Below, piece after piece: positions 8,888-55,615 of a DNA stretch of 64,000 nucleotides. Where the stretch lies: positions 1 through 64,000 of IMG/VR virus record IMGVR_UViG_3300028840_003924; one strand, given 5' to 3'. The first letter of the stretch is position 1; the number at the start of each line of letters is the position of its first letter. A model generated the notes under the pieces. That model was not told where the DNA came from. It worked only from the letters and a program-made list of their open reading frames with translations, and did no database searches. The DNA comes from a virus. The translations under genes and the position numbers were made by a program.

Positions 8888-8909
8888 TGCCCCTCCCCGA
8901 TTACAGTAT

Positions 8910-8993: not shown

Positions 8994-8995
8994 TT

Positions 8996-10873: not shown

Positions 10874-10914
10874 CGGTCCCCCTTATTGTTCTCCCCAACT
10901 ATCCTCCAATATCA

Positions 10915-12816: not shown

Positions 12817-12829
12817 AGTTCCTCATGTG

Positions 12830-14737: not shown

Positions 14738-14764
14738 TGATCCCCGCTTATGTTAAACCTATTA

Positions 14765-16666: not shown

Positions 16667-16733
16667 GTGTCCCCACTATGATTGATTAGATGTCACCGAT
16701 TCGATTCAATTTCGTTGCTGCATTCGGTTCAAT

Positions 16734-16743
16734 CTATTTATCC
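16734..16743 (-). promoter_or_regulatory. Late promoter candidate (GGATAAATAG)
   Basis: On the minus strand, GGATAAATAG lies 68 bases before the ATG at 16666, in a 142-bp intergenic gap. It has the ATAAATA core of T4-type late promoters. The surrounding DNA contains three related copies of ATTGAAyCGA(A)T, which could be a binding-site array; otherwise the gap (16667-16808) holds nothing I can identify. Confidence 0.55.
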
Positions 16744-16808
16744 GTTCAATCTGGTAATTTTGGACATCGGATAAGCTTCATTGCTTGCGGCGTAATGTTG
16801 TAAAGTAT

Positions 16809-18845
<2,037 letters not shown>

Positions 18846-21172: not shown

Positions 21173-21221
21173 GATAGGACTCCTGGGGTTCGGAACCCAT
21201 TTTATCATAAAATATCCCAGG

Positions 21222-22353: not shown

Positions 22354-22493
22354 TTAGCGAATGAAGTTACAGACCGTTAACTTTGCGCACTGACCCTTGT
22401 CAGGCCCGGTGCAATAATATCCAGATTCGCCGAACAGGGTGACCCTTGGTGAATGCTGTATTCGTCGTCCAATGGGAATTGTTGGTTTTTCAT
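22354..22493 (-). pseudogene. Small Cys-rich peptide, frame broken at an A-run
   Basis: An AAAGGAGATAGA site precedes ATG at 22493. The zero frame gives a 38-residue product that stops at 22377. If one base is added, or the ribosome slips -1 at the AAAAA run just after the ATG, the frame gives a 46-residue peptide. It starts MKKPTIPIGRRIQHSPRVTL and contains GYYCTGPDKGQCAKLTVC; the stop is two bases before the next gene. The shifted product looks much more like a protein. This could be a real programmed shift, a recent mutation or an assembly error. Confidence 0.55.
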
Positions 22494-23384: not shown

Positions 23385-23930
23385 TCATTCTTGGTTTTTC
23401 AGTTGCTCTTTGAGATCGGCGATGAGTTGATCCTTTTCCTTTTCCCTGATCTCCTTATCGATCACGAACTTGTTTACGACGCACCCCTTTCGCCAGTATT
23501 GTTCCGAAAGCCTACCAGCGGAGATAATTGCTGGGCCATCGAGCCGATGTAACTCACCCTTCACAAACCACGATTCTGCTCCGTGAGGATCAGTGATGGC
23601 TGGTGCGCCTTCACGGTGAAGCTTACCATCCTTATACCAATGCTTCTCGCCGTCCTCGTAGATGATAGCTGGTTCATCGCCATCACGATGTATCACGCCG
23701 TGTCTAAACCAAGTTTCGGTTCCATCGATAAGAAACCTTGCCGGGCCATCCTCTCGGTGAGGCTTACCATCTTTATCACGGTATTCGAGTCCAATTACGC
23801 CATCTACATGACAGAACACAGCACCGGGCGGACGGTCTTCAGATGCGATGAGAAGAGAGCGAAGGTCTTCATCAATATGGGTAGCGGCAAGCAGCCTTTT
23901 GGTCAGTCGAAATGTTTTCTTCCCGGCCAT
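23385..23930 (-). CDS. HRxDGPA-repeat (YwqK/MORN-like) protein
   Basis: A 181-residue paralogue of the protein at 20156-21172. It has four repeat cores (PHREDGPA, IHRDGDEPA, LHREGAPA, LHRLDGPA) separated by W-F/Y-x-x-G-x turns. The N-terminal module is different (MAGKKTFRLTKRLLAATHID) and the last 30 residues are a charged helix that could form a coiled coil. Beta-solenoid or hairpin-repeat fold is likely; a binding or scaffold role is inferred. Confidence 0.7.
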   Translation of the reverse strand: MAGKKTFRLTKRLLAATHIDEDLRSLLIASEDRPPGAVFCHVDGVIGLEYRDKDGKPHREDGPARFLIDGTETWFRHGVIHRDGDEPAIIYEDGEKHWYKDGKLHREGAPAITDPHGAESWFVKGELHRLDGPAIISAGRLSEQYWRKGCVVNKFVIDKEIREKEKDQLIADLKEQLKNQE

Positions 23931-23981: not shown

Positions 23982-25532
23982 TCACTTTTTTGATTGGTAC
24001 TTTTCATTAGCTTCTTTACGGCGACATTTTTTGCATCTGGACGCCAAACCATCTGCCCTCGACTTATCTTTACCAAATTGGTCGAACTCCAAGATTTGGT
24101 TACATCTGGCACACATTTTCTTACCGTCTTTGGCATGCGGGTTGCCTTTGTTTGGACTTGGATTCTTACCGGCGATATGCCCTCCCTCTCGACCGCATAT
24201 GTAACGACCATTTCGGGTAACATTCTTTTCGTAGGTTTTGCGTAATGGTGTGTGTGTAGTGCCACAGTACTCACAGACTACCTCTACCTTATCGACAGCA
24301 ATACGATTTTGATAGTGGCGTTTGGCACGCTTCCTGTTGTTTTCTTTTTGTTTTTCGAGCCATTGTACATCACCATTTGTTTCTGCGATGTACTTTTTAG
24401 CCCATTGGATGATCTCTTTCTCACCAGCCAAGGACGAATCTCGTTCAGTCCAAACCTTGAAGTTGAAACCATTTTCTTTTGAGTAGTGCTTTGTCTCGGT
24501 GATCTGCTTGGTCACTTCCGGTTCCCGCAAACGTTTCATAGGCTTCACTTCGATAATTTCAACAGACCCATCTTGGTAAGTAGCTTGAATATCAGGATTC
24601 CGCCATTTTCCATCTCGATCTTTGAAAGTACCAGCCCTACAGAATGACTTCGCCGTCCGTTCCAACAAGTATAAGCAGCGCAATTCGTAGGAAGAACCGT
24701 AATAGACTTCTGATTGGTTTATGTCAGACCAGAAATATCCACGAATATGTGAGTGTTTGAAGGTGCCAGTTGCATGTTGCTTAGCGCACCTGTAGGATAA
24801 TGCTTCCCGCCACGACATCTCCTGGTGTAAACAATAGACCCACCTCTTTTTACCACGATCCCACACCCTTTCCAGACCTCTCACTTTCGCCCAGTCATAT
24901 TCTGTCATCCCTTTAGGACATTTGGCCGAGGACTTCTTCTGACTTTGCTTGCTCAGTCTAACCAGCGGATCATTCGTATCCACGTAAGAATAATCTGGTT
25001 TGTACTCCTTCTCCAAAGTAAAGCCCAACACCGAATAGACACCACCTTGGGTCCAACGATTATCACTGAAACTGATAATTTCATCATAGTGATGGGTTTT
25101 TGCCCACTCAACGCATGCCTTAAATAGCTTGCTAGCGCCACCCCGCACGCAGATATCAGTGCCGAAGCATAGGCGATCTAACACAATTCGATTCTTTGAA
25201 ATTTGCCTACTATGGCGACCTAACGAAACAACACCTACTAACTCGTCGTCATGGAGCAACCCAAAGTAAACAACAGCAAGACGGTTCGGACCTTGAATGT
25301 GGTTTATATCGATAAACTCTCTGGCACTAGACTGATCCAGTACTCTGACGAGGCACTTTCGGGCATGGAGCTTTCTTCGAGATTCCCCCCTGGCGGCAAT
25401 GATGAGGTTATTACATTGCATACGACGAGCGTGCCACTCATCCGAGAAGAATAAAATGCCATTATCTGGCCAATCTCGACGATTGTAATTGGCGGGATCA
25501 AACAAATCGACAATGTGAACTGTAATGGCCAA
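23982..25532 (-). CDS. Putative endonuclease: GNAT-like domain plus PD-(D/E)XK and zinc fingers
   Basis: A 516-residue protein starting at TTG 25532 (no ATG in frame before the conserved region). Residues about 60-200 resemble a GNAT/Mom-like fold (SSAREFIDINHIQG, DDELVGVVSLGRHSR, VRGGASKLFKACVEW), as found in phage free-standing homing endonucleases. Residues about 270-345 have E in YGSSYELRCLYLL, D in NPDIQATYQDG, and EVK, the PD-(D/E)XK pattern. The C-terminus has a CEYCG and a CARC...CKKC zinc-binding region. It is located right after the capsid gene terminator, a typical homing site next to an essential gene. Function is inferred from domains. Confidence 0.6.
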   Translation of the reverse strand: MAITVHIVDLFDPANYNRRDWPDNGILFFSDEWHARRMQCNNLIIAARGESRRKLHARKCLVRVLDQSSAREFIDINHIQGPNRLAVVYFGLLHDDELVGVVSLGRHSRQISKNRIVLDRLCFGTDICVRGGASKLFKACVEWAKTHHYDEIISFSDNRWTQGGVYSVLGFTLEKEYKPDYSYVDTNDPLVRLSKQSQKKSSAKCPKGMTEYDWAKVRGLERVWDRGKKRWVYCLHQEMSWREALSYRCAKQHATGTFKHSHIRGYFWSDINQSEVYYGSSYELRCLYLLERTAKSFCRAGTFKDRDGKWRNPDIQATYQDGSVEIIEVKPMKRLREPEVTKQITETKHYSKENGFNFKVWTERDSSLAGEKEIIQWAKKYIAETNGDVQWLEKQKENNRKRAKRHYQNRIAVDKVEVVCEYCGTTHTPLRKTYEKNVTRNGRYICGREGGHIAGKNPSPNKGNPHAKDGKKMCARCNQILEFDQFGKDKSRADGLASRCKKCRRKEANEKYQSKK

Positions 25533-25718: not shown

Positions 25719-27146
25719 TTAGATTACAAAGTTGGCAATCGTCATACGTGCGTAGAACTTAGCCCCCTCACGGAGGAGTTTCTTGCCGTACCTAGTGAGT
25801 ATACCCTTCCGGGGGCAGAAGCTCTCCGGATCGAGTACCACTGGGGTCTGGGTCAAGGGCACGTATGGGCAGTAGAAGTAGCCGCTATCCATGTAAGAAT
25901 CACCCTTGTACCCGAGCAAAATCTGGTTGGTCGGGAAGAGGGGGTCCTTGTATAGACGCCAACGAGCAGCGACGGTGCCTACGTATTGGATACCAATACT
26001 GGAGGTGAACGTCTCACTCGGTTGGGGGGCAAAACCTGCGGTGGCGGTCTCGAAGATCGAGGCAACTTCCGGAGAAGTTACAATCCAGTTAGCCCCACCA
26101 CGGAGGGTCTTCCTATGCACCACATTGGAGACCTCTACGATCTTGACGTAGAGACTCTCATACTTCTCCTTGATTGTGTCGCCCAACGCCGTGTTGAAGT
26201 CCCAGGCGGCTACTGTACCGGCGTTCAGTCGCAGGTCAGTAAGAACCTCTCGGTCGATCTCCAAATTGACCTCTTGGGCCAATACAGCGGTCAGTTCGGC
26301 TTCAGCATCAAGGTTGTGCTGCGAGCGGAGGTCCTGCTGGGCCTCATAGCTCCAAGCTGCCTTCAACTTACGAGTCTTCGCAACGATCTCTTCGTTCTCG
26401 ACTACGAGGTTCACCTCTGGGAGGTCCTGTTGGCACTCAAGGTTGTATTCGTAGTTAACGGTGATCGAGTTGCTACCTGGGTCAGCGTTCCAGGTAAGGG
26501 TCATCACACCCGTTACCAGATCAATAGCACCGGCAGTTACGAGAGTAGCTGGGGCACCAATGCTGGTGAATGTGAAAGCTCCGTTTTCGTCAACGACAAA
26601 CGTCTGGATGTCCGTTGCCCCGTCAGTGATCGTACCAGTGATGGTACCAGCCAGAACAGGAGTCTTCTCCAACGTGTAAGTGAGGCTCGTGCCACCACCA
26701 GCGTTAGATTGGGTCTCGTTCTGAACAAACTGATGAGTGAACCAGATGTCCAGGTTTGCGTCACCGGAAGCAAGCTGTTGCAAGCTAAGTGCGTCGTCGC
26801 CGGGGAATCCAGGCTGAGTTGCACCACGAGTTGCACCCTTGTTACTTGCATAACGGAATCGCAGGTAGTACACCAAACCTGCGGGACCGAGTAGCGGTTG
26901 TACGCTAACGATCTTATTTGCGATAAGCTGAGGATAAATCCTTCTTACCAACGGAATCGAAATTCGCTTGAATTGTGCAATGTCGCTTGTGTCAGTGGCA
27001 ACCTCGTTCATTAGACGCTGGTTTTCCAGCAGAACGGCGGTTGTAGCACGGGTAAAACGATCTTTGATACCATCAAGCAACTTTGTCTCAGCCCAGAGTG
27101 ATTCAAGCTCTTTGGCTTCATTGAGCAATCTTGCATTAAAGTTCAT
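25719..27146 (-). CDS. 23: Major capsid protein (T4 gp23-like)
   Basis: A 475-residue protein with the gp23-family hallmarks. The region FKRISIPLVRRIYPQLIANK then VSVQPL corresponds to the T4 segment ahead of GVQPM. The end (GILTRYGKKLLREGAKFYAR) corresponds to the gp23 C-terminus. An insertion at about 165-245 (GTITDGATDIQTFVVDENG...) is like the extra domain of other jumbo-phage capsid proteins. The N-terminal ~50 residues (MNFNARLLNEAKELESLW) is the likely propeptide removed by the protease. That segment recurs in the small gene at 53145-53318. AAGGAG precedes the ATG; it is co-transcribed with the scaffold eight bases upstream. Confidence 0.92.
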   Translation of the reverse strand: MNFNARLLNEAKELESLWAETKLLDGIKDRFTRATTAVLLENQRLMNEVATDTSDIAQFKRISIPLVRRIYPQLIANKIVSVQPLLGPAGLVYYLRFRYASNKGATRGATQPGFPGDDALSLQQLASGDANLDIWFTHQFVQNETQSNAGGGTSLTYTLEKTPVLAGTITGTITDGATDIQTFVVDENGAFTFTSIGAPATLVTAGAIDLVTGVMTLTWNADPGSNSITVNYEYNLECQQDLPEVNLVVENEEIVAKTRKLKAAWSYEAQQDLRSQHNLDAEAELTAVLAQEVNLEIDREVLTDLRLNAGTVAAWDFNTALGDTIKEKYESLYVKIVEVSNVVHRKTLRGGANWIVTSPEVASIFETATAGFAPQPSETFTSSIGIQYVGTVAARWRLYKDPLFPTNQILLGYKGDSYMDSGYFYCPYVPLTQTPVVLDPESFCPRKGILTRYGKKLLREGAKFYARMTIANFVI

Positions 27147-27154
27147 GTTACTCC

Positions 27155-28090
27155 TTAGTCATTTTCCTTAAGACCGGCCAATACCTGCCATTGCTCGGTA
27201 ATGGTCTTCTCTTCATCATTGACGGGCTCTTGACCGTCAGTTGCGGTGCTACCAACAGTTTCACCAAGCAGTACTTCACGTTCCGGCTCGGATACCGTTT
27301 GTCCACGACCCTCTACATTGCTTGCTCTTTCAAGTCTTTCGTTCTGTTCGTTAAGAACATTCTTCTCAATCAATTCTTTAGTCTCTTTCAGATAATCGTG
27401 CATCTTGTTATTCTCAGTCATAAGACGCATATTCTTGCTTTCAAGCTGACGCTTCGTCACTTGAACACTTTCGAGTTGACGCTCTAAGTCCTCAACACGA
27501 GTGTTAGTGTTCAGCATGATGTCCTCGTCAGACAGGTAATCCTTGGCCACATCGAGCACTCGCTCGAATGCTAGGCGATGATCAAGCAGACATGGGTCGT
27601 TAAGAACCTCACGTCGTGCCATCTCGTAGTACTCGTCTCCCTGCTGTGCCAGGAACTGGTCAAGCTGCTCGACCATGTATTCTTTCATAGTCTTAAGCTT
27701 CTTGTCGAACTCCTCATACAGCATGTCATGCAGACTCTCATTCTTCTGCCGTTCAGCTAGAATCATTTGATAAGCACTTTCGTACTCCTCTTCGAGTGTC
27801 TGCTGGAACTCCTCGTCCTGGCGTGCAAGGCGGGCCCTAAGATCAGCGATTACGTCATACGCTTGGCGGTAGCCTTCTTCAGCCGTCTGCCAATCTTTCT
27901 CTCGCTCGGCGGTGATGGTCTTATAGCCTTCTTCCAACTTTTCGTTGTACTCGGCTTCCATCTCTGACCTTAGATCGGTGACCGCTTCGTCCAGAAGAGA
28001 AGTTACAACGGCTGCTACTTTGTCCCTCGCCTCTTCGGGTATTAGACCCGCTAGGGCTTCTAGGATTGTGTTCTGTTTAGTATTTGCCAT
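27155..28090 (-). CDS. 22: Prohead scaffold/core protein
   Basis: A 311-residue, almost entirely helical, acidic and coiled-coil protein. Residues 35-260 are continuous heptads (EAEYNEKLEEGYKTITAERE, LERQLESVQVTKRQLESKNM). It sits between the prohead protease and the capsid gene, where T4 has its scaffold gp22, which is degraded by gp21. There is little sequence conservation in this family, so the assignment rests mainly on order and composition. Gene symbol by position. Confidence 0.75.
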   Translation of the reverse strand: MANTKQNTILEALAGLIPEEARDKVAAVVTSLLDEAVTDLRSEMEAEYNEKLEEGYKTITAEREKDWQTAEEGYRQAYDVIADLRARLARQDEEFQQTLEEEYESAYQMILAERQKNESLHDMLYEEFDKKLKTMKEYMVEQLDQFLAQQGDEYYEMARREVLNDPCLLDHRLAFERVLDVAKDYLSDEDIMLNTNTRVEDLERQLESVQVTKRQLESKNMRLMTENNKMHDYLKETKELIEKNVLNEQNERLERASNVEGRGQTVSEPEREVLLGETVGSTATDGQEPVNDEEKTITEQWQVLAGLKEND

Positions 28091-28107: not shown

Positions 28108-28857
28108 TTAGAATCTCTTATGGTTTTTGATCTCTTCGGCGTGTTGCCGAATAATGTGTCCCAAATAAGCTACGTAGGCATCGGGATTGTTAACCTTATT
28201 TATCCTTGTAGCTTCATTTTTGTCCGTCGAAGTACACCCTTCGGCGGAAGCGCCCGTCAAAATAGGCTCCCCGGCGATGTTCTCATGTCGAGAATCACCG
28301 GTTACCACCTTCTGATAGGCAGCGAAGGTGGATGGGTCGGCAACGGCGTCAAACGTGATGAGTTTGTAGCTCTCGCCAATAACTAACACGCCTTCGCTGT
28401 TAACCTGTCCGTTTCCAACACCCCTGCTACTAATACCCACTCGGACGCCTGCTTTGATAAGCGCATCGAGAATCATGCCGTGAGGCGTGGGAAGAATCTC
28501 GCCTTCGCCCATCAGAACGTCGCCATCCCACCAAAGGTCGGTGATAACATGGCTACATTTGTCGAAGTGGATAATAGAGTCGGTAGGGTGATCCAACTCT
28601 CCTACAAGACCCCTGGACTGGATCGTCTCCATGAGACGAACTTTATTTTGCTCAAGGATGTCGTAACTGTAGAGTCGTTTGTTCTTATTCTGCTTGTTGG
28701 CCTCTTGGAACTTGCCTCGAAACTTAGTTGGGCCTGACGTGGCTTCCTCTGCGAGGAACAGTTCCGCACTACCGACCGAATCAAGGAAGAGCATCTCTCT
28801 TCCCTGATTCGGTACAATGAGTTGTGAGACCGCTTCGTGAAAATCACGCTGGTCCAT
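28108..28857 (-). CDS. 21: Prohead maturation protease (T4 gp21-like)
   Basis: A 249-residue serine protease of the assemblin/gp21 fold. The catalytic His is in GELDHP (residue 90) and the Ser in GISSRG (141-146), with the expected spacing. It matures the scaffold, capsid protein and internal proteins inside the prohead. The ATG at 28857 has AGGAGGT upstream; an in-frame TTG at 28860 is in the way of that site. It is nine bases from the upstream gene, and its 3' part carries a promoter for the scaffold and capsid genes. Confidence 0.85.
   Translation of the reverse strand: MDQRDFHEAVSQLIVPNQGREMLFLDSVGSAELFLAEEATSGPTKFRGKFQEANKQNKNKRLYSYDILEQNKVRLMETIQSRGLVGELDHPTDSIIHFDKCSHVITDLWWDGDVLMGEGEILPTPHGMILDALIKAGVRVGISSRGVGNGQVNSEGVLVIGESYKLITFDAVADPSTFAAYQKVVTGDSRHENIAGEPILTGASAEGCTSTDKNEATRINKVNNPDAYVAYLGHIIRQHAEEIKNHKRF
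28194..28205 (-). promoter_or_regulatory. Late promoter candidate (GGATAAATAAGG)
   Basis: The minus-strand 12-mer GGATAAATAAGG lies inside the protease gene, 104 bases before the scaffold ATG. It is identical to the site at 60618-60629. It would drive the highly expressed scaffold and capsid genes separately from the portal end, as T4 does. Confidence 0.6.
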
Positions 28858-28865
28858 CAAACCTC

Positions 28866-31320: not shown

Positions 31321-33954
31321 TTACTCGTCGCCCTCTGATTCGCCGACATCAATTTCTTCCTCGTCAACCTCTTGACCAGCATCTTCGATCTCCAGGTCGT
31401 ACTTCTTGATGTCTTCCTCTTCAGGCTTAGGCAATCTTCCAGCACCCGTCGTTTCTGGACTTGGCGCAGCAGCCGGTCCTCCTGCTGGCGATCCAGGTGT
31501 CGCCTCCGGTGCTGGCGAACCTTCGGCTCCTGCTCCTGCGGGCGGTGCGCCCTCGGGACCTCCAAGTGCTCCCTCGGGACCTCCTGGCGCTCCTTCAGGC
31601 CCAGGTAATGCCCCAGCAGGCCCACCTTCGGGCGGACCTAACATAGGCGATGGCCCACCAGCACCAGCACCAATTTCCGTTCCTTGCTGTGCCATAGGTG
31701 TCAAACCAAGCATTTCGGGATTCTGCCCCATGGCTTGCAATCGCAAGTCGTCCACCTGCTGGGCTTTAACTCTGGCGACCATTTCACGGGCCTCATCTTC
31801 TTCATAACCCAAAATCTGGACCAAAGCGTCGTATTTGGACATGAGTTGTGAACCGAGGACGGTCGCAGCACGCCCATAAAGAACTTCGGTTACTTCATTG
31901 CGATTGATTTGTCGCCAATCAGAAGGTGGGGTCAATCGAATTTCAAGATCATCATACGTATCAGGCGGAAAGCCTCGAAGCATGAGGTGCCTCTTCGCTA
32001 TCTCAAGGTAGGCCCTAGCCAATGGCTTTTGAAGCCTTTCTACCAATCGTGCGAAGCGAACATCCTGTTGGGAAAGTGTAAGTCGAGTCGCCTGCGGGTC
32101 CTCGTTGGTGAGGTAGTTCTTTGGGAACTGAAGTGCCGTGAAGAGTCGTTGTCTGAAATACAAAGCATCATCGATCTCCCCCAAATTTTCGGCTCCTGGT
32201 AGGGTCTCGATTCGAGTTTGACTATTTGGTCGAACTGGAATGAAGTAATCCTCATCCGGGCCCATCGGGTTCCATCGTTCTTCTACGGCTGAAGCGCCTT
32301 GGGGACCACCACTTCGCTTACGACTGTAGACCTTCTTCTTCCGGAACTGGTCCTTAACCCTGTCAACAAACGCCTCGGCACGGGGTGGTGCGATTGTTCC
32401 GACATCGACGTAGAACACACGTCGTTCTGGGGCTCTAGTCAGTCTGTAAACCAACATTGCGTCCTCCATTAGTCGTAACTGATGGGCTGGACCACGGGCG
32501 GCTTCGATTACAGAGATGCCGTATGGGTAGAATGTTTTACGATCATCGCCGATCCTTGCATGTACGATTTGTTCTGGATGGAATCTCAAAGCTGTCGCCT
32601 GCATCAACTCGGCTTGCGATGCTCTAGTGATCTCCGTTCTTGCTAATGCATTGTAGTCGGGACCTTCTTGGGATTGCTGGAACTCATAGAGGCGACCCTT
32701 GATCGTTTCAATGCGATACATGCTATCTGCTGGGAGCGACTGAACTTTGATAACGCCACGTTTCGGGTCCTCCGGGTCAATAACAAGCTCGAAGAAGTGA
32801 TCGCCCAACTTACAGAGGCTTCTTTGGATGCCCCACGATCTATCATCTAGCTCAAGAAGCCTGTGCATCAAGAACTCGATCTCTTCTTTCACGTCGTGAT
32901 TCTCTGTCCTGACCTTGAAAACTCTACCATCATCATCTGTCTGGCAGTTGTGAACAATCGTTGCGTCAGTAGCAAAGTTAGCATGGTCCTCCACAGATAG
33001 GTCGTAGACCTTTCGTCTCCTATTTTTCGAGACACCCACAACAGTACGCTCTTCAGGGTATCGTTTACACAGAGTTTGAATTTCGCCAAAAGTGAACCCG
33101 TGCCTCTCCAAATGGGCTATGATCATCTGGCGGTAGTGGCCAATAGCCTTTTCGACCTGCCTTACACCTAAGCCCTTTTGGATGAATCGACCGATCTTGT
33201 TTAATCGCTTGTATTCGTCAATATCCTTGTCTAGCTTCCACTCGTCGATGAACTGCCGCTCGTGAACCCAACCCTTGTTGTAGGTGAAAATCCTTGGGAA
33301 CTGAAGTGTCTTCAACTTCTTCTGATTCTCATCAGCCTGAATACGGTAAAATGGTTTGAGTTTATCACCATGTTTCAGGTCACCCGCTTCTCGCCATGTC
33401 CCATCCATCATTAGGAATCGGTGGTCGGGAGTAACCAGATGTCGCATCCCGTTGTCGAATTTAACTTCTACAGTCTTCGCTTCCCTCACGAAACGAGGGT
33501 TGTAAGCCCAACCCAAAGTGAAGTCGTTCTTCTCGAAATCCCAACAATACACCAGGAAACGTTCTTCGGGGTCCTTCTCTTCAGCCAACTCTTGAATTGT
33601 GAAGAATCCCATGGGTGTAGCAATCTTTGTGCTACCAGATAGACATGCTTCATCAGCAAAGGTATTCAGCGCAGTGTGGATTTCCGGAATGTTCTCCAGA
33701 CGCTCATACTCCTTGTAGCGACTTTTTCTGTTGGTAACCGTACTGAGGTCAATAAAGTCATTACTATCACTGGTTTGTATCCTCATCGGCGACTGAGCGC
33801 CACCCCACATGTTACTTCGGATGTCCCACCGTGCGTCAGGCGACGTAACACCGACACCTTCAATATGCTCATCCTCTTGATTTGCTTCTATCGGGCCCGG
33901 TTTCGTGGCGTAATAGAACAACTTGTATATGTCTGAAAAGAACGGTACAGCCAT
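31321..33954 (-). CDS. 20: Portal protein (T4 gp20-like) interrupted by an intein
   Basis: An 877-residue precursor. Residues 1-103 and 337-877 are the portal: NRKSRYKEYERLENIPEIHT is the conserved gp20 entry motif, and the C-extein has MYRIETIKGRLYEFQQSQEG and QFPKNYLTNEDPQATRLTLS, typical of the family. Residues 104-336 are an intein. After splicing the junction is DEA|CQTD, giving about 644 residues. The C-terminal 120 residues are Gly/Pro-rich then acidic. The portal forms the 12-mer DNA gate at the head vertex. The ATG at 33954 has GGTGG upstream. Confidence 0.9.
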   Translation of the reverse strand: MAVPFFSDIYKLFYYATKPGPIEANQEDEHIEGVGVTSPDARWDIRSNMWGGAQSPMRIQTSDSNDFIDLSTVTNRKSRYKEYERLENIPEIHTALNTFADEACLSGSTKIATPMGFFTIQELAEEKDPEERFLVYCWDFEKNDFTLGWAYNPRFVREAKTVEVKFDNGMRHLVTPDHRFLMMDGTWREAGDLKHGDKLKPFYRIQADENQKKLKTLQFPRIFTYNKGWVHERQFIDEWKLDKDIDEYKRLNKIGRFIQKGLGVRQVEKAIGHYRQMIIAHLERHGFTFGEIQTLCKRYPEERTVVGVSKNRRRKVYDLSVEDHANFATDATIVHNCQTDDDGRVFKVRTENHDVKEEIEFLMHRLLELDDRSWGIQRSLCKLGDHFFELVIDPEDPKRGVIKVQSLPADSMYRIETIKGRLYEFQQSQEGPDYNALARTEITRASQAELMQATALRFHPEQIVHARIGDDRKTFYPYGISVIEAARGPAHQLRLMEDAMLVYRLTRAPERRVFYVDVGTIAPPRAEAFVDRVKDQFRKKKVYSRKRSGGPQGASAVEERWNPMGPDEDYFIPVRPNSQTRIETLPGAENLGEIDDALYFRQRLFTALQFPKNYLTNEDPQATRLTLSQQDVRFARLVERLQKPLARAYLEIAKRHLMLRGFPPDTYDDLEIRLTPPSDWRQINRNEVTEVLYGRAATVLGSQLMSKYDALVQILGYEEDEAREMVARVKAQQVDDLRLQAMGQNPEMLGLTPMAQQGTEIGAGAGGPSPMLGPPEGGPAGALPGPEGAPGGPEGALGGPEGAPPAGAGAEGSPAPEATPGSPAGGPAAAPSPETTGAGRLPKPEEEDIKKYDLEIEDAGQEVDEEEIDVGESEGDE
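32947..33645 (-). other. Intein in the portal protein
   Basis: A 233-residue Hint-type intein. It starts CLSGSTKIATPMGF (block A), has HLVTPDHRFLM (block B, TxxH) and ends in VYDLSVEDHANFATDATIVHN with the +1 residue Cys. All splicing residues are canonical: Cys1, His penultimate, Asn last, Cys+1. The linker of about 100 residues between the blocks has no LAGLIDADG motif, so it is not a standard homing endonuclease; a helical degenerate or unrecognised nuclease is possible. Confidence 0.9.
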
Positions 33955-36564: not shown

Positions 36565-36634
36565 TTGTCCTCCTAACTTATGTACAAGCTAAAAGAGTAA
36601 AAGCTGCCCTAGATAGCTTAACTGGAGAATGAAC

Positions 36635-37327
36635 ATGTTCAAAACATTCAAGGAATACGTGCAATATCGTGAGGCGGTAACGCCTGTTGGGCGAAAAGGG
36701 CCACGTATATATAAGGGCGCAGAAATCCTCGGTAAGGGGCCCGAAGCAGAAGCGGCGTATCGCTCAGGCAGAACCGCTCATGAAAGGCAAACAGGTATGC
36801 CCGCACCACAAAAGGGAAGAGTCCTTGTCTCTGGTGATCCACAACTTGCGAAGAGGGCTTATGAAATCGGTAGTCCGACACCAGCACCAAAACACCCTAC
36901 TACAGGTGGCCCACCCATGAAAGCAACTTGGGAGTTTCCGCAACAACAACTCGGCGACCCTCGTTTAGCGAGACCCGGCGAACTACCCAAACCTAGCCCA
37001 TGGGCCGATAAACCTCACGATCTCGATCCTTTTGGTGATGATGACGATTCTTCTTCTTGGATCGATCTTGGCCCACCACTTAGCGATTTGCCAAAAGAAC
37101 CAACCGCCGAAAAAGGTGCAGATGCCTGGACCCAAACAGTTAATCAGGTTGGAGATCAACTCCTTCGGCAATATGGATCATCGGCTCTAGCTAGCGTACC
37201 TTTAACTACCATAGCAAAACTGCTGCCCAAAGGATGGACACCAGACCAATATGCCGATGCCGCAGATCAAATCGGGAAGTGGGCCCGGCAGCTAAGACAG
37301 GCCCAACAAGGAAGCCAACCCGCTTAA
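36635..37327 (+). CDS. Protein with capsid-targeting-like start
   Basis: A 230-residue protein read from ATG 36635 (GGAG seven bases upstream; ATG 36629 is too close to it). It begins MFKTFKEYVQYREAV, like the T4 internal-protein leader MKTYQEFIAEA. The rest is Pro/Gly-rich and low-complexity (PTPAPKHPTTGGPPMKATWE), with a helical end GWTPDQYADAADQIGKWARQ. It has no recognised enzyme motif. A head-internal or packaged protein is plausible. Confidence 0.55.
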   Translation: MFKTFKEYVQYREAVTPVGRKGPRIYKGAEILGKGPEAEAAYRSGRTAHERQTGMPAPQKGRVLVSGDPQLAKRAYEIGSPTPAPKHPTTGGPPMKATWEFPQQQLGDPRLARPGELPKPSPWADKPHDLDPFGDDDDSSSWIDLGPPLSDLPKEPTAEKGADAWTQTVNQVGDQLLRQYGSSALASVPLTTIAKLLPKGWTPDQYADAADQIGKWARQLRQAQQGSQPA

Positions 37328-43517: not shown

Positions 43518-44591
43518 ATGAGACGATTTGATGAGTGGTACGACGAATATCTCTTACAAGAGGCCGATCCGACTGTTCTTAGCCCCCCACCGGGCCCACC
43601 CGGTGGGCCACCAAAAGCAAAAGCACCATCGTCTTTCGGCCAATGGGCAGCACAACGACAAACGGTACCGCAAAAAATAGCCCAAACTGGGCTATCCATG
43701 ATTGGTAAGGGGGGCGACCCGAAAACTACCTTGCGACAAGGGGAAGAAGCCCAACGTCTAGCAGCCCTAGGATACCAGTATGAAGACTTTGGCGACTATG
43801 TCGCCCGAGATGTTCAAGATAGAAAATCAAAGGAACTTGCTCAAGCCCTTTTCGATACCTTCAAGCGAAAAGCGCCATCTGCAAGCGCAACCACCGAAGC
43901 AGCGATGGCTGAAGCAGCTAAACAAACAGCAGAGCTTATCACTAAAGGTGGCGAACTCGGGGCAGAATCATTTACCGATATGCTTACAACGGTTCATAGG
44001 GATACAGCCATTGACGATCAAACTAAGTCGCAAGCATGGCCAGACCATTTGACTGTCTTTACGCAAATGGTAAGCCCAACTTTCCTCGCAAGACCAGATT
44101 TGTGGTATAGACCCTATATTAACGATCCCAAACAACGACTACACACCGCAGCCTCTGTCAACAACGGTAGCTTTTCCGCTTACGACGAAAAGTGGGAGAA
44201 GGATGAAAGAAATGTGGCAGCGAAAGTCGCTCAGGCAGGTGAGGAGATCGACGTTATTAACACTGTGGCATCTTCCGTTCCTGCGGGTACCGTCCCTTAT
44301 GATCTGCTGAAATTATTTGCCGACCGTACCTACCAACAAATCGAGAAACAGGGAGGGAAGCCAAAATATGACCGATATGATGCCGATAGTCGCTTATGGG
44401 CGCTCTCTATGGAATACGCCCAAGGGCAACCTAGACCACCGACACCACCCCCTGTATCGCCACCACCGGTAACACCACCACCACCACCACCGGTAACACC
44501 GGCACCACCAGGGGTACCGGGAGGACCGGGAGTTCCGGCGCAACCACCGGGAGTGCCGGTTACGGGAACTAGAGGTTCAAGACTTCCCTAA
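43518..44591 (+). CDS. Pro-rich protein with capsid-targeting-like start
   Basis: A 357-residue protein starting MRRFDEWYDEYLLQEADPTV. The leader with LLQE|A fits the T4 capsid-targeting and gp21 cleavage pattern (L/I-x-E). After a PPPGPPGGPP linker the middle is helical (AAMAEAAKQTAELIT), and the C-terminus is PPPV/PPVTPP-rich. AGAGAGTAAGATT precedes the ATG. Its stop overlaps the convergent small gene by four bases. Candidate internal head protein. Confidence 0.6.
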   Translation: MRRFDEWYDEYLLQEADPTVLSPPPGPPGGPPKAKAPSSFGQWAAQRQTVPQKIAQTGLSMIGKGGDPKTTLRQGEEAQRLAALGYQYEDFGDYVARDVQDRKSKELAQALFDTFKRKAPSASATTEAAMAEAAKQTAELITKGGELGAESFTDMLTTVHRDTAIDDQTKSQAWPDHLTVFTQMVSPTFLARPDLWYRPYINDPKQRLHTAASVNNGSFSAYDEKWEKDERNVAAKVAQAGEEIDVINTVASSVPAGTVPYDLLKLFADRTYQQIEKQGGKPKYDRYDADSRLWALSMEYAQGQPRPPTPPPVSPPPVTPPPPPPVTPAPPGVPGGPGVPAQPPGVPVTGTRGSRLP

Positions 44592-44758
44592 CGTTTCTTC
44601 ATACGTTTCTTCATACCACGAGATGGTAGTTCAACTACAGGAAGAGCTTGCGGTCGACCACGCTTGGCGTCATCACGATGTAAAGCAGCTACTCGGCCCA
44701 CGGAAGGGGTCGGTTCTCTCAAGCCTTCGTTTTGTAATAGCCAGTCTTTGAATCGCAT
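44588..44758 (-). CDS. Small basic protein with capsid-targeting-like start
   Basis: A 56-residue product starting MRFKDWLLQNEGLREP and ending SRGMKKRMKKR. The leader is close to that of the 43518 and 49208 genes; the basic tail would suit binding packaged DNA. AGAGTAAGATC precedes the ATG, the same upstream string as the 43518 gene. A candidate internal head protein. Confidence 0.6.
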   Translation of the reverse strand: MRFKDWLLQNEGLREPTPSVGRVAALHRDDAKRGRPQALPVVELPSRGMKKRMKKR

Positions 44759-44804
44759 GATCTTACTCTATATATGGCAGTGATCCCAAACATGAGAGAA
44801 TCGG

Positions 44805-47077: not shown

Positions 47078-47665
47078 TCAATAACCAGCAGCAACCAGGG
47101 CATTGCTAAGATAGGCATCTATAACTTCCCAAAGGCCAATCCTCTTTTCATCATAGGGGTCATTTTTGAGAATGACTTCATTTAACCTACGGGCTTGTGA
47201 CAGGTCGATTGGTTGGTTACTGAAGTATTTCATATTTAGGAAGGCATCTTCGTGGTGAGTTGCCAACTCACCATCTACACTCACCAAGGGCTCTTTCTCA
47301 GCCATGTGAGACCCTTTACCATCATAGAACTCCCTCCACACACGGGTAGCCTCGGGATTCATCTGAGTTCTTACACGGTTGGGGCAAAGGCCGTTGGGCG
47401 ACAACTGCATACCGATAAGGTAGATGATTGGTCCGAAACCGTGTTCCGCAGCCACCCCCTCTGTCTCTTGGCAGTCATATCTTGCATTGTAACGAGTCTG
47501 AAGTGCCGCAACGACACCCTCATCGCTAAACTCGGTTCGCCGCAAGAGCATATTCCGTACCGACTCAGGACGATAGAGTCCGATCAGGCCGTCTGCCTGG
47601 AATAAAGCCAGACCATGGATATTCGGTAAGTTGGCTTCGGCATAGAAGTATTGGGCAAATCTCAT
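47078..47665 (-). CDS. Conserved phage protein with capsid-targeting-like start
   Basis: A 195-residue protein starting MRFAQYFYAEANLP, close in pattern to T4 MKTYQEFIAEA. Residues about 70-150 (HGFGPIIYLIGMQLSPNGLC, PNRVRTQMNPEATRVWREFY) match a recurring jumbo-phage domain with a (Y/F)GPxxYxxxM motif, which I take to be a conserved phage protein of unknown activity. It ends 11 bases ahead of nothing else on this strand. Confidence 0.55.
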   Translation of the reverse strand: MRFAQYFYAEANLPNIHGLALFQADGLIGLYRPESVRNMLLRRTEFSDEGVVAALQTRYNARYDCQETEGVAAEHGFGPIIYLIGMQLSPNGLCPNRVRTQMNPEATRVWREFYDGKGSHMAEKEPLVSVDGELATHHEDAFLNMKYFSNQPIDLSQARRLNEVILKNDPYDEKRIGLWEVIDAYLSNALVAAGY

Positions 47666-48533: not shown

Positions 48534-49211
48534 ATGAAGATTTTTCTACGAGACCGGAACCCAGGAATGATCAGCGCCTGGAAGAAGCACTTCTCAGAGT
48601 GTAATGATGTTGATATCTCATTGGGAGATATCTTTGAAGGCTTCAACCACAAGGTAGACGCCATCGTCAGCCCGGCCAACAGTTTTGGCTTCATGGATGG
48701 GGGAATCGATTACGTCTATAGCATGAAGTTTGGTTGGGAGATGTCTGAGCGGTTGCGTAAAGAGATTCTCGCTATCTACGGCGGCGAGCTTCTTGTGGGC
48801 TCGGCCCACGTCATCGAAACGGGCAGCGAGGACATTCCTTGGTTGATCTGCGCCCCCACGATGCGGGTTCCCATGGATGTTTCTGACACTGTAAATGCCT
48901 TCCTTGCTTTCAGAGCCGCCCTCTACGCTGTAAACCTCCATAATTGGCGAGCCGAAAACAAGGACAAAGAACTCCAAAAAATCGAATCTATCCTTTGCCC
49001 CGGTCTCGGAACTGCCGTAGGTGAAATGCCTTATACGATTTGCGCACAACAGATGCATATTGCATACCGACATTGTATCCAGAAAAATATCCCAGTCTAT
49101 GAGAACTTGGGAGATGCATATCGGGTGCATTACATGATGGTGGGAGCGATGGGCCAAACGCCTCAAACCGCAATCAAATTGGCCATTCCAAAGACCGATG
49201 ACGAAGCTTAA
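48534..49211 (+). CDS. Macro-domain protein
   Basis: A 225-residue protein from ATG 48534 (AAGGAGG upstream). The ADP-ribose loop SPANSFGFMDGGID at 46-59 and a second loop PGLGTAVGEMPY identify a macro domain. Such domains bind or remove ADP-ribose, or hydrolyse ADP-ribose-1''-phosphate. It might counter host ADP-ribosylation or NAD-based defence; that is inference. Its stop overlaps that of the convergent gene by four bases. Confidence 0.85.
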   Translation: MKIFLRDRNPGMISAWKKHFSECNDVDISLGDIFEGFNHKVDAIVSPANSFGFMDGGIDYVYSMKFGWEMSERLRKEILAIYGGELLVGSAHVIETGSEDIPWLICAPTMRVPMDVSDTVNAFLAFRAALYAVNLHNWRAENKDKELQKIESILCPGLGTAVGEMPYTICAQQMHIAYRHCIQKNIPVYENLGDAYRVHYMMVGAMGQTPQTAIKLAIPKTDDEA

Positions 49212-50089
49212 CCGGCAAACATCTCATCGAAGCCATGATCTACAGCCCATTTAGCTAACTCGTAGACTGCCTTTGCGGCTCTTACGATACGCCCTGCGTC
49301 AAGTCCGCCCTGGTAAATCCGAGGGCCTTCACTCTCGGGGTCAGGACCCTGAGGCTCTTTGGTATACATCGTGGCCCAGTTGTAGATATCGCCTCCCATG
49401 CGATCATAAGCTCGAATGTAGTCCGAGGCTTTGAAGTTGTAACCCCGCCACTCCCCCTCCTCTTCAGGAGGCTCTTCACCGGCCAACTGTGAAACCACAC
49501 CTTGCACTGGGTCAGGACCAGCCGAAGGTAAGTCAAACAAGTCTTCAAATAGCGCTTTCGCCGTTGGGAATCCCATGTTGACATCGGGCGGCATATCTGC
49601 TTTCTCGATTGCCTGTGGATCGAGCTTAATAGGAATACGAATGACACGGGTTTTGTCTAGTTGACCACCGCTCGCCCCAAGGTACTCTCTCTTGATATCC
49701 TCGTCCGACTCGGGCCATTTTCGCAAATCTCTTGTTAGAGCATCCGCATAACTTTCTTCTCTCGGCTCACCCATTGTACCACCCACCTTTTCCACGTATT
49801 CCTTAATCTTCGTAAGGATCGGTCGAATCATATCGGGTGGGATTTCAGAATTGGGTCTATTCATATAGAGATTGACAATGCCCTCAAGGTTGAAGTGGTC
49901 GTCGCCATCTGGAGAGATTTGTTCGTATCCCATTGGTACTATTGGATGAACTGCTCGCATCAACTCATTCGTTAGACTCAGTAAATCTTCAGGAACCCGC
50001 CTAGCATGTAACTCTCTCCATTGGTCTTGGGTCATCGAAACACCCACATCCACACTCTCATTCAGTTTTACCCATTCTCTAAATCGCAT
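49208..50089 (-). CDS. Protein with capsid-targeting-like start
   Basis: A 293-residue product starting MRFREWVKLNESVDVGVS; L-N-E|S fits the gp21 cleavage pattern. The rest is acidic and Pro-containing, with a helical end (AGRIVRAAKAVYELAKWAVD). GGAGGTACA precedes the ATG. No enzyme motif. Candidate packaged or internal head protein. Confidence 0.55.
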   Translation of the reverse strand: MRFREWVKLNESVDVGVSMTQDQWRELHARRVPEDLLSLTNELMRAVHPIVPMGYEQISPDGDDHFNLEGIVNLYMNRPNSEIPPDMIRPILTKIKEYVEKVGGTMGEPREESYADALTRDLRKWPESDEDIKREYLGASGGQLDKTRVIRIPIKLDPQAIEKADMPPDVNMGFPTAKALFEDLFDLPSAGPDPVQGVVSQLAGEEPPEEEGEWRGYNFKASDYIRAYDRMGGDIYNWATMYTKEPQGPDPESEGPRIYQGGLDAGRIVRAAKAVYELAKWAVDHGFDEMFAG

Positions 50090-51977: not shown

Positions 51978-52838
51978 ATGGATAGAGATACTTGCACCTT
52001 TTGCCTTGAAGGCCAGAAAGTCTACAAGGACCCGTACTCCTGGTCATGTGATGTCTGCGGAATGAACGGTAACGACGAGTTTCCGGTACTTGGTATTGAA
52101 GAGATTGCCACAACCGAAGAGTTGGAACTACCAAATTTCGCAGCACTACCCCCGCAAGGTATACCAGGGTCTTATGGCATCTTCGGATCGAGCAGTAAGC
52201 CAAAGAAGAAGAAGCTGAAAGCTAAATGGACACGGGAAGCTATGGAAGATATCCAACAGTTCCACAAGATCGATATGTCGAATGGGATGGATGGGTTCGT
52301 TTCGGGAGAATTTCCCAAAGAGGATACTAATTCGTTAGACCAAATGGCATCGGAAGATTTACCCACTATCACCCAGATACTATACCCAGGACCTCCACAC
52401 GGAAACAGCGGCCACCGGTATACCATGTACCAAACGAGCCACCGGATTAAACGAGGTACGCTTGCTGGTATAATCGCAAGGCGTGGCCACCCACTTGTGA
52501 TGCTTGGCCAGTTCATAGATGACCCCAAAGACCCGCTCGAATCGCTCTCGTTCACAAGTGATTGTGCAATGAGTGGGCGCATTTGGCATAGCTCTGGATT
52601 TATTGAAATCAACTGGGGGCACCGCCTGCCACCAATGCATTGTATCTCGGTCGACTATGCACGAGCGCAAGGTAAGAAAGCGTTTCACCCGCCCTATAAA
52701 TGGAAAGTCGAAACGACCGCTGGGTCATCGTGGGTCTTCTATACGACCAGCAGCGCTAAAGGCGATGCAATTATACACTTGATTCGAGCATTCAAGTTAT
52801 CGTCAGATAAGATCAAGAAGCTTCAGCGAGTAGTGTAG
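51978..52838 (+). CDS. Zinc-ribbon protein of unknown function
   Basis: A 286-residue protein. The N-terminus has CTFC and CDVC pairs (about 6-27), a zinc ribbon. Positions 90-285 are a mixed domain with HKIDMSNGMD and FTSDCAMSGRIWHSSGF. No enzyme motif is evident. The gene is followed by a strong hairpin. Position near primase suggests a nucleic-acid role, which is inference. Confidence 0.5.
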   Translation: MDRDTCTFCLEGQKVYKDPYSWSCDVCGMNGNDEFPVLGIEEIATTEELELPNFAALPPQGIPGSYGIFGSSSKPKKKKLKAKWTREAMEDIQQFHKIDMSNGMDGFVSGEFPKEDTNSLDQMASEDLPTITQILYPGPPHGNSGHRYTMYQTSHRIKRGTLAGIIARRGHPLVMLGQFIDDPKDPLESLSFTSDCAMSGRIWHSSGFIEINWGHRLPPMHCISVDYARAQGKKAFHPPYKWKVETTAGSSWVFYTTSSAKGDAIIHLIRAFKLSSDKIKKLQRVV

Positions 52839-52911: not shown

Positions 52912-53148
52912 TCACGCCGACTTTATGTAGTGCGGCAGTTTCTTGAGCGCCATAATGTGGGAATCAAATTCATGGTATGGGCTGTTCGGGTACTCAAAGA
53001 CAGCTTCGTTGAAAGCTTCTTCGTCTTTGTCGAGTACGTCGAAATAGAATATCTTACCTTTACGTCCAACGACTGTAAAGCCATGCATTCGCAGATAGGC
53101 TGCTACCCCAAGGTCTTCAATGCTTTTTCGTACTGTATTTTCACTCAT
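52912..53148 (-). CDS. DUF5659-like small protein
   Basis: A 78-residue protein with AAGGAG before ATG. The sequence AAYLRMHGFTVVGRKGKIFY is typical of a short DUF5659-type family found in phages. Acidic C-terminal half. Its ATG overlaps the upstream gene's stop (ATGA), so it is coupled to the small capsid-like gene. Confidence 0.65.
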   Translation of the reverse strand: MSENTVRKSIEDLGVAAYLRMHGFTVVGRKGKIFYFDVLDKDEEAFNEAVFEYPNSPYHEFDSHIMALKKLPHYIKSA

Positions 53149-53318
53149 TCAGTTTTCTCCTTCTTGGATCGTTTCTTCTTCTCGTTGGCCAATCGCTCAC
53201 TCTCCAACGATATCGCTTTTTGGTAGACTTTGTAGAACTCATAATCCATAGTAGAACGTGTCTCCCACAGTTTCTCTAGCTCCTTAGCTTCTGCTAACAA
53301 CTTTTCATTGAAGTTCAT
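53145..53318 (-). CDS. Small protein copying the N-terminus of the capsid protein
   Basis: A 57-residue product. Its first 18 residues (MNFNEKLLAEAKELEKLW) are 14/18 identical to those of the major capsid protein (MNFNARLLNEAKELESLW), while the rest is a Lys/Glu-rich helix (KKKRSKKEK). It lacks any other capsid domain. Translation is coupled at both ends (ATGA with the upstream gene at 53315-53318 and with the downstream gene). If the capsid N-terminus is a propeptide that targets or delays assembly, this protein could compete with or assist it; the function is unknown. Confidence 0.65.
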   Translation of the reverse strand: MNFNEKLLAEAKELEKLWETRSTMDYEFYKVYQKAISLESERLANEKKKRSKKEKTE

Positions 53319-55615
53319 ATATCTCTACCTCTAGGCGGTATGTAGTTATCATCAGCTAGTTTCACCAAGTGCGCCCTGACATACGGAATCTGCATGTCCC
53401 GAAAATAGTCACCAGGGAAGTGGTTCACAAGTCTGTTACATTGGAACTTAACCGGCGTTCCAATGAATCGGGCGTAGTTCCTATTGGTATAGTACCAGAA
53501 GCTGTTACTGTTCCAGAACGAATTTCCGCTCCACAAGACCCGCCCATTACGTCGGGTCATTACCACATGGTGTTCTGGCACTGTGATACAATATACTTTA
53601 CCTTTGTAATCCACCACCTCTTTCTTACGAGGCAAGTAACTTTCTTTTGATTTCGACACGCAGACTAAGTATATGTCATGCTTAGCCCGATAATCGGGAT
53701 TACAAGATACGGACTTCCCCATTCTATCTTCTTTACCAACTGTGGCACGATAACCGCACTTAACTGCCACCTCCTGCACATCTTTTGCCAACTGGGAGGA
53801 TGTAGTTGCGTATGTAGATGACTTTGCACCATTCTTAGTGCCATCACCTAATATCAACGTGGTCAAAAGCCGTTCCAATAAACTAGGATGAAGCTGTTTG
53901 ATTGAAACAGGGATATACTTCTCCCATGACTTACCCAATTTGGATAACCACAAGGCCAGGAACTTGTCGTTGAAATACCACCCATTCTCTGTGCGGCATG
54001 GTTTATATCCCATCTCCCTCAATGTCCGCCCAATAAGATCAAACTTCTCCTTGTTAGCCTTTTCAGATTGATGGACTTGAATGCGATAGAAGTTATATCG
54101 GCCACCTTCTTCGATACTACTATTGATAGAAACGCAACCTTCCGAAATGTACCACCCTAAGAAGTCTACAAATGACCCTATAGGTAACCTCACGGTGTCA
54201 TTTGCAAAACCGCCCTGCGGATTAGAATGCAAAGTGAGCCGGGACCCTGGTATTTCAAAGTACTCGGGATAATCGCCATCAAATTGAGCATTTGATGGAA
54301 TCCGCAAAGGACTGGCATACGTCAACGTTTCTGAAGCATCCATTCTCCGGAATCGTGTTGTTTCATCCGAACTTCCAACGATCATCCCGTGATTAGGGGT
54401 TACCAAGGCATCAATATGACGCCCTTTGTAGTGAATCATATCGCCATCATAGTCGTAAGAGTGTACATGTTCGGCGGGAAGCTCAACCACCCGATCAGTT
54501 TCCGGGTCGAGCACATGGAATAATTCCGTGCCATCTAGGTCTTGAAAGCGAACAAAACCTTTAGTTGTAAAGACTTCTGTTTGCTCATCATGACAACAAT
54601 GCGTCGGGTCCTGAAAAGCACCACGACCATCTGTACTAGGCACATCAATCAAGAACCAACCATTGGGTGCGAGGCATCGCCACGCCTCCTTCATCGTATG
54701 GATTGGGTTCTTGAGATGCTCAACAGCATCTTTCGCACGGAAGACGCCCACACTATTGTTCTCGAATGGCCAAGCGTAATCGAGATCGGCCTTGATTGTC
54801 GCCCCGGCACAATATTTGTCTACACCGATATATCCCGGTGGGGCACTCTCGCCACAACACAAGTCCACCTTCTTAAGACCTTCATCGTCACACCACTTAG
54901 CCACCATGGGTTCGATATACTGATCGTGTAATTCACGGGTAACGTGCTGAATCTTCTTATTCTTATCACCGTAGCAAGTGTTATCACCTACATTGTAGTT
55001 GTATAGCGGAACTGGTACCCGCACGCACTTCCCATGAATGTATGTGCGACAAAGAAGTTCGTGGTCATCCGCTACGTCATAATTGGAATTATGACCGCCG
55101 ATCCTGTCATAGAAACTCTTACGCCACGCACGAACATGATTTGGCGCAAACCAGATGTAGGAGAAAGCTAAGGGGTCAGGATCAAATGCACGAGTCACAA
55201 CTTGACCGCCCTGCATGTTGTACTTCCATCCGAATTTCTCGGAGAAAGGTCGAACTGTCTTGCCATCCCTCCATTCAAACCAATCTGAATAAGCGAAGTC
55301 TACACTTGGGTCTTCAAAGGCTTGCGATAACGCTTCTAGGCAGTTCGATTGGAGCCAATCATCATGATCAAGTTCAACCAGGACATCACCCGTAGCGTAA
55401 CCACAGGCGACCTTCTTAAGTTCGCCAATAGAGTCTGTGTCTTTGTCAAGGACATGCACCTTGATCTTTCCGGTACCTTCAACATTCTCAGACTTACCTT
55501 TACCATTTACCAATACAACCCATTCCCAATCCAAATAGGTTTGAGCCAACATACTCTCACGAGCCTTAGCTAATTTCCAAGGCTCGTGAGTCGGTGTGAT
55601 AACAGAAAACTTCAT
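53315..55615 (-). CDS. GT2 glycosyltransferase-methyltransferase with intein
   Basis: A 766-residue precursor. Residues 1-215 are a GT-A family 2 glycosyltransferase (SVITPTHEPWKLAKARESML, metal motif LDHDD at 82-86). Residues about 225-340 and the last 68 form a methyltransferase-like domain (VDLCCGESAPPGYIGVDKY, DVPSTDGRGAFQDPTH). The intein interrupts the conserved segment DPTHxSFWNxxSFWYYT. Spliced protein is about 408 residues. It likely adds and methylates a sugar; target unknown. ATG 55615 lies just after the stop of the upstream gene; GGAG is eight bases before. Confidence 0.8.
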   Translation of the reverse strand: MKFSVITPTHEPWKLAKARESMLAQTYLDWEWVVLVNGKGKSENVEGTGKIKVHVLDKDTDSIGELKKVACGYATGDVLVELDHDDWLQSNCLEALSQAFEDPSVDFAYSDWFEWRDGKTVRPFSEKFGWKYNMQGGQVVTRAFDPDPLAFSYIWFAPNHVRAWRKSFYDRIGGHNSNYDVADDHELLCRTYIHGKCVRVPVPLYNYNVGDNTCYGDKNKKIQHVTRELHDQYIEPMVAKWCDDEGLKKVDLCCGESAPPGYIGVDKYCAGATIKADLDYAWPFENNSVGVFRAKDAVEHLKNPIHTMKEAWRCLAPNGWFLIDVPSTDGRGAFQDPTHCCHDEQTEVFTTKGFVRFQDLDGTELFHVLDPETDRVVELPAEHVHSYDYDGDMIHYKGRHIDALVTPNHGMIVGSSDETTRFRRMDASETLTYASPLRIPSNAQFDGDYPEYFEIPGSRLTLHSNPQGGFANDTVRLPIGSFVDFLGWYISEGCVSINSSIEEGGRYNFYRIQVHQSEKANKEKFDLIGRTLREMGYKPCRTENGWYFNDKFLALWLSKLGKSWEKYIPVSIKQLHPSLLERLLTTLILGDGTKNGAKSSTYATTSSQLAKDVQEVAVKCGYRATVGKEDRMGKSVSCNPDYRAKHDIYLVCVSKSKESYLPRKKEVVDYKGKVYCITVPEHHVVMTRRNGRVLWSGNSFWNSNSFWYYTNRNYARFIGTPVKFQCNRLVNHFPGDYFRDMQIPYVRAHLVKLADDNYIPPRGRDI
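53522..54595 (-). other. Intein with LAGLIDADG homing endonuclease
   Basis: A 358-residue intein. It starts CHDEQTEVFTTKGF and ends in PEHHVVMTRRNGRVLWSGN, with Ser+1. Two endonuclease motifs are intact: FLGWYISEG and LTTLILGDG. The penultimate residue is Gly, not His. The junction after splicing is DPTHC|SFWN. The endonuclease should spread the intein into vacant copies. Confidence 0.88.

Follow-up and report, generated by a model that had tools for sequence, protein, structure and literature searches.

A 57-residue phage protein with the propeptide region of the major capsid protein: a possible capsid-targeting signal

N-terminal propeptides direct the internal proteins of bacteriophage T4 into the prohead core, and the protease gp21 cleaves after L/I-x-E. 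The first 10 residues suffice for targeting, as in the case of IPIII; residues 4 and 7 matter for targeting and residues 8 and 10 for processing (PMC9026906). Past this capsid-targeting sequence (CTS), the T4 internal proteins are not conserved (PMC9026906, PMC3012670). IPII, for example, begins with MKTYQEFIAEA and has the cut layout IAE/A (here and below the slash marks the cut). Other N-termini, read from the T4 record, are those of gp24 (MAKINELLRES), gp22 (MLKEQLIAEAQ) and gp21 itself (MNEPQLLIETW).

Here we analyse an open reading frame (ORF) of 57 aa which begins like the major capsid protein (MCP) of the large T4-like phage that carries it. It lies in a 64,000-nt stretch of DNA (positions 1 to 64,000 of IMG/VR record IMGVR_UViG_3300028840_003924), referred to below as the window and belonging to a 136-kb genome. 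The ORF, its neighbours and the head genes are as follows:

53145-53318, minus strand: the 57-aa ORF, MNFNEKLLAEAKELEKLWETRSTMDYEFYKVYQKAISLESERLANEKKKRSKKEKTE (ATG start; similarity to the MCP; AF2 model)
53265-53318, minus strand: codons 1-18 of the ORF, the MCP-like N-terminus
53286-53297, minus strand: candidate site for an S77 (gp21-type) protease in the ORF, L8-A9-E10/A11 (L/I-x-E rule)
53181-53216, minus strand: second MCP-like block of the ORF, AISLESERLANE, counterpart of MCP 37-48, AVLLENQRLMNE
53148-53180, minus strand: basic tail of the ORF, KKKRSKKEKTE, not in the MCP (net charge +5)
53328-53332, minus strand: Shine-Dalgarno-like AGAGG, from sequence, 9 nt 5' of the ATG of the ORF
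53315-55615, minus strand: upstream gene, GT2 plus methyltransferase, with a LAGLIDADG intein
52912-53148, minus strand: downstream gene, 78 aa, DUF5659-like
25719-27146, minus strand: MCP, Gp23 family (Pfam PF07068 from residue 56, E=1.5e-84; phrog_138; T4 gp23 structures)
27155-28090, minus strand: probable scaffold/core protein, from gene order (gp22 position, in the interval between protease and MCP); no family match in Pfam or PHROG
28108-28860, minus strand: prohead protease, Peptidase_S77, gp21-type (Pfam E=1.2e-23)

The ORF was correctly located by the first-pass annotation, about 26 kb from the MCP gene. Its description as lying among glycosyltransferases holds for the gene upstream, a GT2/methyltransferase with an intein, and not for the downstream one. 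Both neighbours overlap it: its ATG overlaps the upstream stop and its own stop overlaps the ATG of the 78-aa ORF, each time as ATGA, and these overlaps together with the AGAGG make a good gene-like setting. The T4-type late promoter TATAAATA does not occur in the 64-kb window. AF2 models the product as a pair of helices spanning residues 3-20 and 26-56 (mean pLDDT 80), and a structure search with this model gave no match. The ORF is also without a PHROG or Pfam match, and tblastn gave no phage match. Net charge is +3 over residues 11-57 and +5 over residues 47-57.

The MCP begins with MNFNARLLNEAKELESLW. Alignment bears out the earlier count of 14 identities between the first 18 residues of the ORF and those of its own MCP. 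The likeness had been thought to end there; the tblastn alignment in fact spans residues 1-47 (47%, E=1.1e-6). A profile scan of the phage's own genome recovers the ORF at E=1.7e-7, against a best value of E=0.26 for reversed-ORF decoys. Chance similarity is ruled out by shuffling (Smith-Waterman score 93 against the MCP, shuffle maximum 54, n=20,000) and by a genome-wide scan of start codons, in which the next best match to the 18 residues among 8,193 open start codons of the 136-kb genome is 7/18. A second block, A(I/V)xLExxRLxNE, aligns ORF residues 35-46 with MCP 37-48, and the portion past residue 18 is significant against the MCP by itself (10/20,000 shuffles). The ORF thus includes nearly the whole MCP propeptide region but lacks the HK97 fold of Gp23, being only 57 aa long, with two helices and no Pfam match. 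Helices occur at similar places, residues 3-19 and 30-50, in the N-terminus of an AF2 model of the MCP. That model is poor outside the N-terminus and an Ig domain (mean pLDDT 54), so that the MCP segments discussed below could not be placed in the structure.

The start of the ORF, MNFNEKLLAE/A, has the layout M-x5-phi-L-x-E/A of the T4 head propeptides. Only two ORFs of the 136-kb genome, the MCP and the 57-aa ORF, fit the pattern M-x4-6-[FLIM][LIV]-x-E-[AS]. A propeptide of about 10-19 residues ending in L/I-x-E is therefore present as a candidate, judged from sequence only, and the same genome encodes a gp21-type (S77) protease (28108-28860). L8-N9-E10 and W18 are the same in all of 27 diverse family MCPs.

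A profile of MCP and mini-protein N-termini was run through 36 whole records and recovered the MCP in each. Its non-MCP matches were a 98-aa protein of genome G004 (L109 5462-5758), in which the MCP-like N-terminus is followed by a CPRC...CPGC zinc ribbon, a 65-aa protein of genome G002 (L110 5133-5330), in which it is followed by a short tail, and the contig that is the twin of the window. In G047, a frame of 160 aa (L234) matches MCP 5-73. The segment, whose presence in many unrelated phage proteins would have spoken against a special relationship, turned up nowhere but in MCPs and these few mini-proteins of the same family. L8, E10, A11 and W18 do not vary in an alignment of the three mini-proteins with MCPs; position 9 is occupied by A, E or N in the mini-proteins and varies only there, not in the aligned MCPs. 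A free residue 9 between a fixed L8 and E10 is as expected under the L/I-x-E rule.

Over codons 1-18, synonymous differences between the ORF and its own MCP are saturated (pS 0.88; pN 0.17) yet 14 of the 18 residues are identical, and the peptide therefore appears to be under selection. The MCP is also constrained, so that this contrast does not by itself prove selection on the ORF; a segment kept over such a distance would nevertheless not be expected of an unconstrained ORF. Recent duplication of the MCP as the origin of the ORF is ruled out by the same saturation. Of 105 MCPs compared, the one most similar to the ORF comes from a close relative (L008; first block 15/18), and F3, L7 and L17 of the ORF are marks of its own MCP clade, the wider family having mostly MNANxxFLNEAKELExRW. 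Elsewhere the ORF occurs in one further contig, identical over the ORF, and none was found in GTDB genome contigs. It is consequently an orphan apart from an identical copy, and its own selection is not measurable from relatives.

These properties lead us to favour, tentatively and at slightly less than an even chance, a small structural or head-core protein which would use an MCP-type propeptide as a capsid-targeting sequence. We infer targeting, cleavage, presence in the head and a role for the basic tail along the following lines. The N-terminal helix MNFNEKLLAEAKELEKLW would bind a scaffold-core or inner-shell partner, the same one as the MCP propeptide, and binding during prohead assembly would make the 57-aa protein part of the prohead core. 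Next, the S77 protease would cleave behind E10 (LAE/A) and perhaps also behind E46 (ANE/K). This would release a short, basic, mostly helical peptide, either kept with the DNA or lost, a fate that we liken to that of T4 internal proteins and core peptides. Such use accounts for the conserved layout, for the differing cargo that relatives attach to this N-terminus and for the tie with the MCP of its own clade. Several observations speak against it: the possible second site, A-N-E, deviates from L/I-x-E; the gene is 26 kb from the head cluster, in a glycosyltransferase operon, with no T4-type late promoter in the window; the ORF is an orphan; and other MCP-segment ORFs of the family hold parts outside the propeptide.

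The first-pass annotation knew of no described system of this kind. T4 capsid-targeting sequences explain the N-terminus at least as well (PMC9026906). Its link with head assembly is borne out by the propeptide region and the T4-like layout, while nothing found here shows the decoy, size or timing roles that it proposed. Like IPI, IPII, IPIII and Alt, the ORF starts with a short peptide ending in phi-L/I-x-E/A at residue 10, and it shares with T4 CTS proteins a small basic product (predicted here), a family-variable cargo behind a conserved N-terminus and an S77 protease in the genome. Unlike in the T4 CTS proteins, its peptide is the MCP's own, running to residue 47 with the second MCP block. 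The gene, again unlike those of IPI, IPII, IPIII and Alt, is single and part of a glycosyltransferase operon, targeting and cleavage here being putative. Past the motif, PHROG, Pfam and tblastn gave no homology to any known internal protein; since T4 internal proteins are unconserved past the CTS, this bars filing the ORF as a homologue, not the mechanism.

The capsid and core proteins of T4 provide further comparisons. gp24 (MAKINELLRE/S) has the layout of the ORF, and MCP 11-48, with W18 and LLENQ, resembles a gp23-type propeptide (compare the MCP of G048); unlike in gp24 and gp23, no capsid fold follows the propeptide of the ORF. The core proteins gp22, gp67 and gp68 are likewise small and helical, and gp22 starts with MLKEQLIAE/A, but the ORF is related to them by motif only and its gene lies outside the head cluster. 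Inh, the T4 inhibitor of the gp21 protease, would offer a functional parallel should the protease be the target of the ORF. It is ruled out as a homologue of the ORF, having no significant match to it, to gp23 or to gp24. CTS-bearing proteins are already known, and a protein that takes its CTS from the propeptide of the MCP would be a variant of them. If targeting is true, an MCP propeptide can act as an address label for unrelated cargo, and head-packaged proteins of large uncultured phages could be found from sequence alone.

Three further ORFs of the window are weakly MCP-like:

51978-52838, plus strand: 286-aa ORF (Pfam Gp23 E=0.014; segment HMM E=0.0022 and 0.04; weak)
22377-22493, minus strand: 38-aa ORF like MCP 111-136 (segment HMM E=0.0025; weak)
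21659-22351, minus strand: 230-aa ORF like MCP 142-236 and 324-402, in MCP order (HMM E=0.0075; weak)

The 286-aa ORF, which adjoins the operon of the 57-aa ORF, has a zinc-ribbon-like start followed by likenesses to MCP 258-286 and 112-130, in an order reversed relative to the MCP. Outside the window, a DUF3008 ORF at 74840-75277 (minus strand) has a FEEWLKER stretch and then a match to MCP 45-76 (E=2.6e-7).

A search with the whole MCP through the same records found short ORFs with other MCP segments. G004 (IMGVR_UViG_3300049215_000771, 532 kb) has seven, corresponding to MCP 1-57, 53-105, 255-309, 305-447, 314-368, 398-443 and 435-461, and more are present in G002, G003, G005, G015, G024, G039, G047 and LR756511. 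Hits in other ORFs that fall in MCP 128-240 were left out, since this region looks like a shared Ig-type domain. Many of these ORFs end with KK-YRSIDDPW or a variant, e.g. HRSITDPWEVSRFD, and this shared C-terminal tag is encoded by differing codons. Exact YRSIDDPW occurs in 7 IMG/VR contigs, with most copies in G004; the pattern read backward had zero matches in the 36 records, and neither YRSIDDPW nor RSIDDPW occurs in the window's own genome. About a dozen small G004 proteins carry KKYRSIDDPW at or near the C-terminus (L184, L185, L186, L187, L203, L207-L215, L219, L227), with bodies that include MCP segments, a protease copy, a piece of a 656-aa head protein, a gp32-like piece, a zinc ribbon and unknowns. 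The tagged protease copy (L208) is 43% identical to the window's protease and has ELGPV for ELDHP and GFKMVG for GISSRG, so that it lacks the counterparts of the presumed active-site His and Ser. Also tagged are a piece similar to the C-terminal end of the 656-aa head protein and a protein with a weak gp32 match (E=0.014).

Compared with their own MCPs, the fragments are near synonymous saturation (pS 0.62-0.98) with 45-87% protein identity, two more distant ones having 32-34%. Most are no nearer their own MCP than others (own rank 7-93 of 105 MCPs). The sets vary between phages, each combination being unique to one phage. Highly conserved stretches of the MCP are often where the segments lie, and some fragments stop shortly past the match. 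Within a genome, the fragments tile the MCP with little overlap, which is suggestive only, the test being weak and partly post hoc (P=0.034 for the five tagged ones of G004, P=0.056 for the window's own genome, 0.18 for G047). That every gene is fragmented alike is ruled out by the same search with terminase and with the 656-aa head protein, neither of which yielded scattered pieces across 35 records (LR756508 has one terminase paralogue). For the protease it gave two extra partial copies (G004, LR756511), the match to LR756508's own protease being split within one frame. Pseudogene decay is rejected for G004 304-433, G015 and G024, where the stops flank the open stretch of the match; in the LR756511 match to 47-125 the stops are truly internal.

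Since these other ORFs hold non-propeptide parts of the MCP, targeting is not the whole story for the set. They suggest a broader head-associated family, or mimicry in capsid assembly, the phage's own or a competitor's. It is possible, though doubtful, that dispersed and selected mini-proteins, each combining one MCP segment (at times one of the protease, of another head protein or possibly of gp32) with small modules such as the C-terminal YRSIDDPW tag or a zinc ribbon, form an undescribed mimicry layer that would control or interfere with capsid assembly, the 57-aa ORF being its propeptide member. As far as the literature searched goes, mostly outside subscription journals, a dispersed, tagged set of MCP segments is undescribed, and no account of scattered capsid fragments in phages was found. 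If functional as such, the set would be a new means for a phage to control, or attack, capsid assembly; it gives a concrete gene list and a tag motif for testing.

For the 57-aa protein itself we consider it unlikely that a free propeptide-like helix acts as an MCP mimic, competing with the MCP for scaffold, protease or chaperone, and thereby governs when, how fast or at what size heads are assembled, as one of a set in which each member occupies a different MCP interface. The recurrence of other-segment ORFs in the nine genomes named above, their saturated synonymous sites at 45-87% protein identity, and the tagged protease copy without the residues aligned to the catalytic His and Ser all agree with such competition. 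T4 has an annotated assembly inhibitor, Inh, as a precedent, but one without significant similarity to gp23, gp24 or the ORF. The ORF also keeps a cleavage-site pattern, for which a pure competitor has no need.

Host sensors recognising phage structural proteins are known. The set could accordingly be directed outward, as dominant-negative poisons of rival capsids or as decoys for such sensors, which we regard as quite improbable. Fragments mostly no nearer their own MCP than other family MCPs, segments often within highly conserved stretches and sets differing from phage to phage would fit this. The set has, however, no link to defence or competition, and the 57-aa ORF is nearest to MCPs of its own clade (L008), with the clade-specific F3, L7 and L17, a closeness that fits use with its own assembly machinery. 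Very improbable, finally, is a leftover, either a partial MCP duplication that has drifted and has no function or a piece of a broken-up capsid paralogue: the small overlap of one genome's fragments, their ends shortly past the match and their phage-specific combinations would suit it, but the tiling test is weak, protein identity is retained despite synonymous saturation, and the tight gene overlaps, the AGAGG site and a common tag with differing codons point to a kept protein function.

Several other features of the window and its relatives were observed. N-termini of the form MxxF-x-[EKQD]-[WYF], recalling the T4 CTS, are present at 36629-37327 (plus), 43518-44591 (plus), 44591-44767 (minus), 47078-47665 (minus) and 49208-50089 (minus); small ORFs near the MCP of G002 (L110) contain similar FKEWLxER stretches. 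The portal protein (31321-33954, minus) holds an intein (Pfam Intein_splicing E=8e-13). Directly downstream of the MCP, a 516-aa ORF (23982-25532, minus) has Mom-like/GNAT and TnsA-like endonuclease domains; G002 too has a nuclease-like ORF downstream of its MCP (L110 5766-6707). Long proteins with collagen-like GPTGPQG repeats, which are probably fibres, follow one another over 7073-18845 (minus), and repeated 'G..HREDGPA' units (MORN-like) are found in two proteins, at 20156-21208 (minus) and 23385-23930 (minus).
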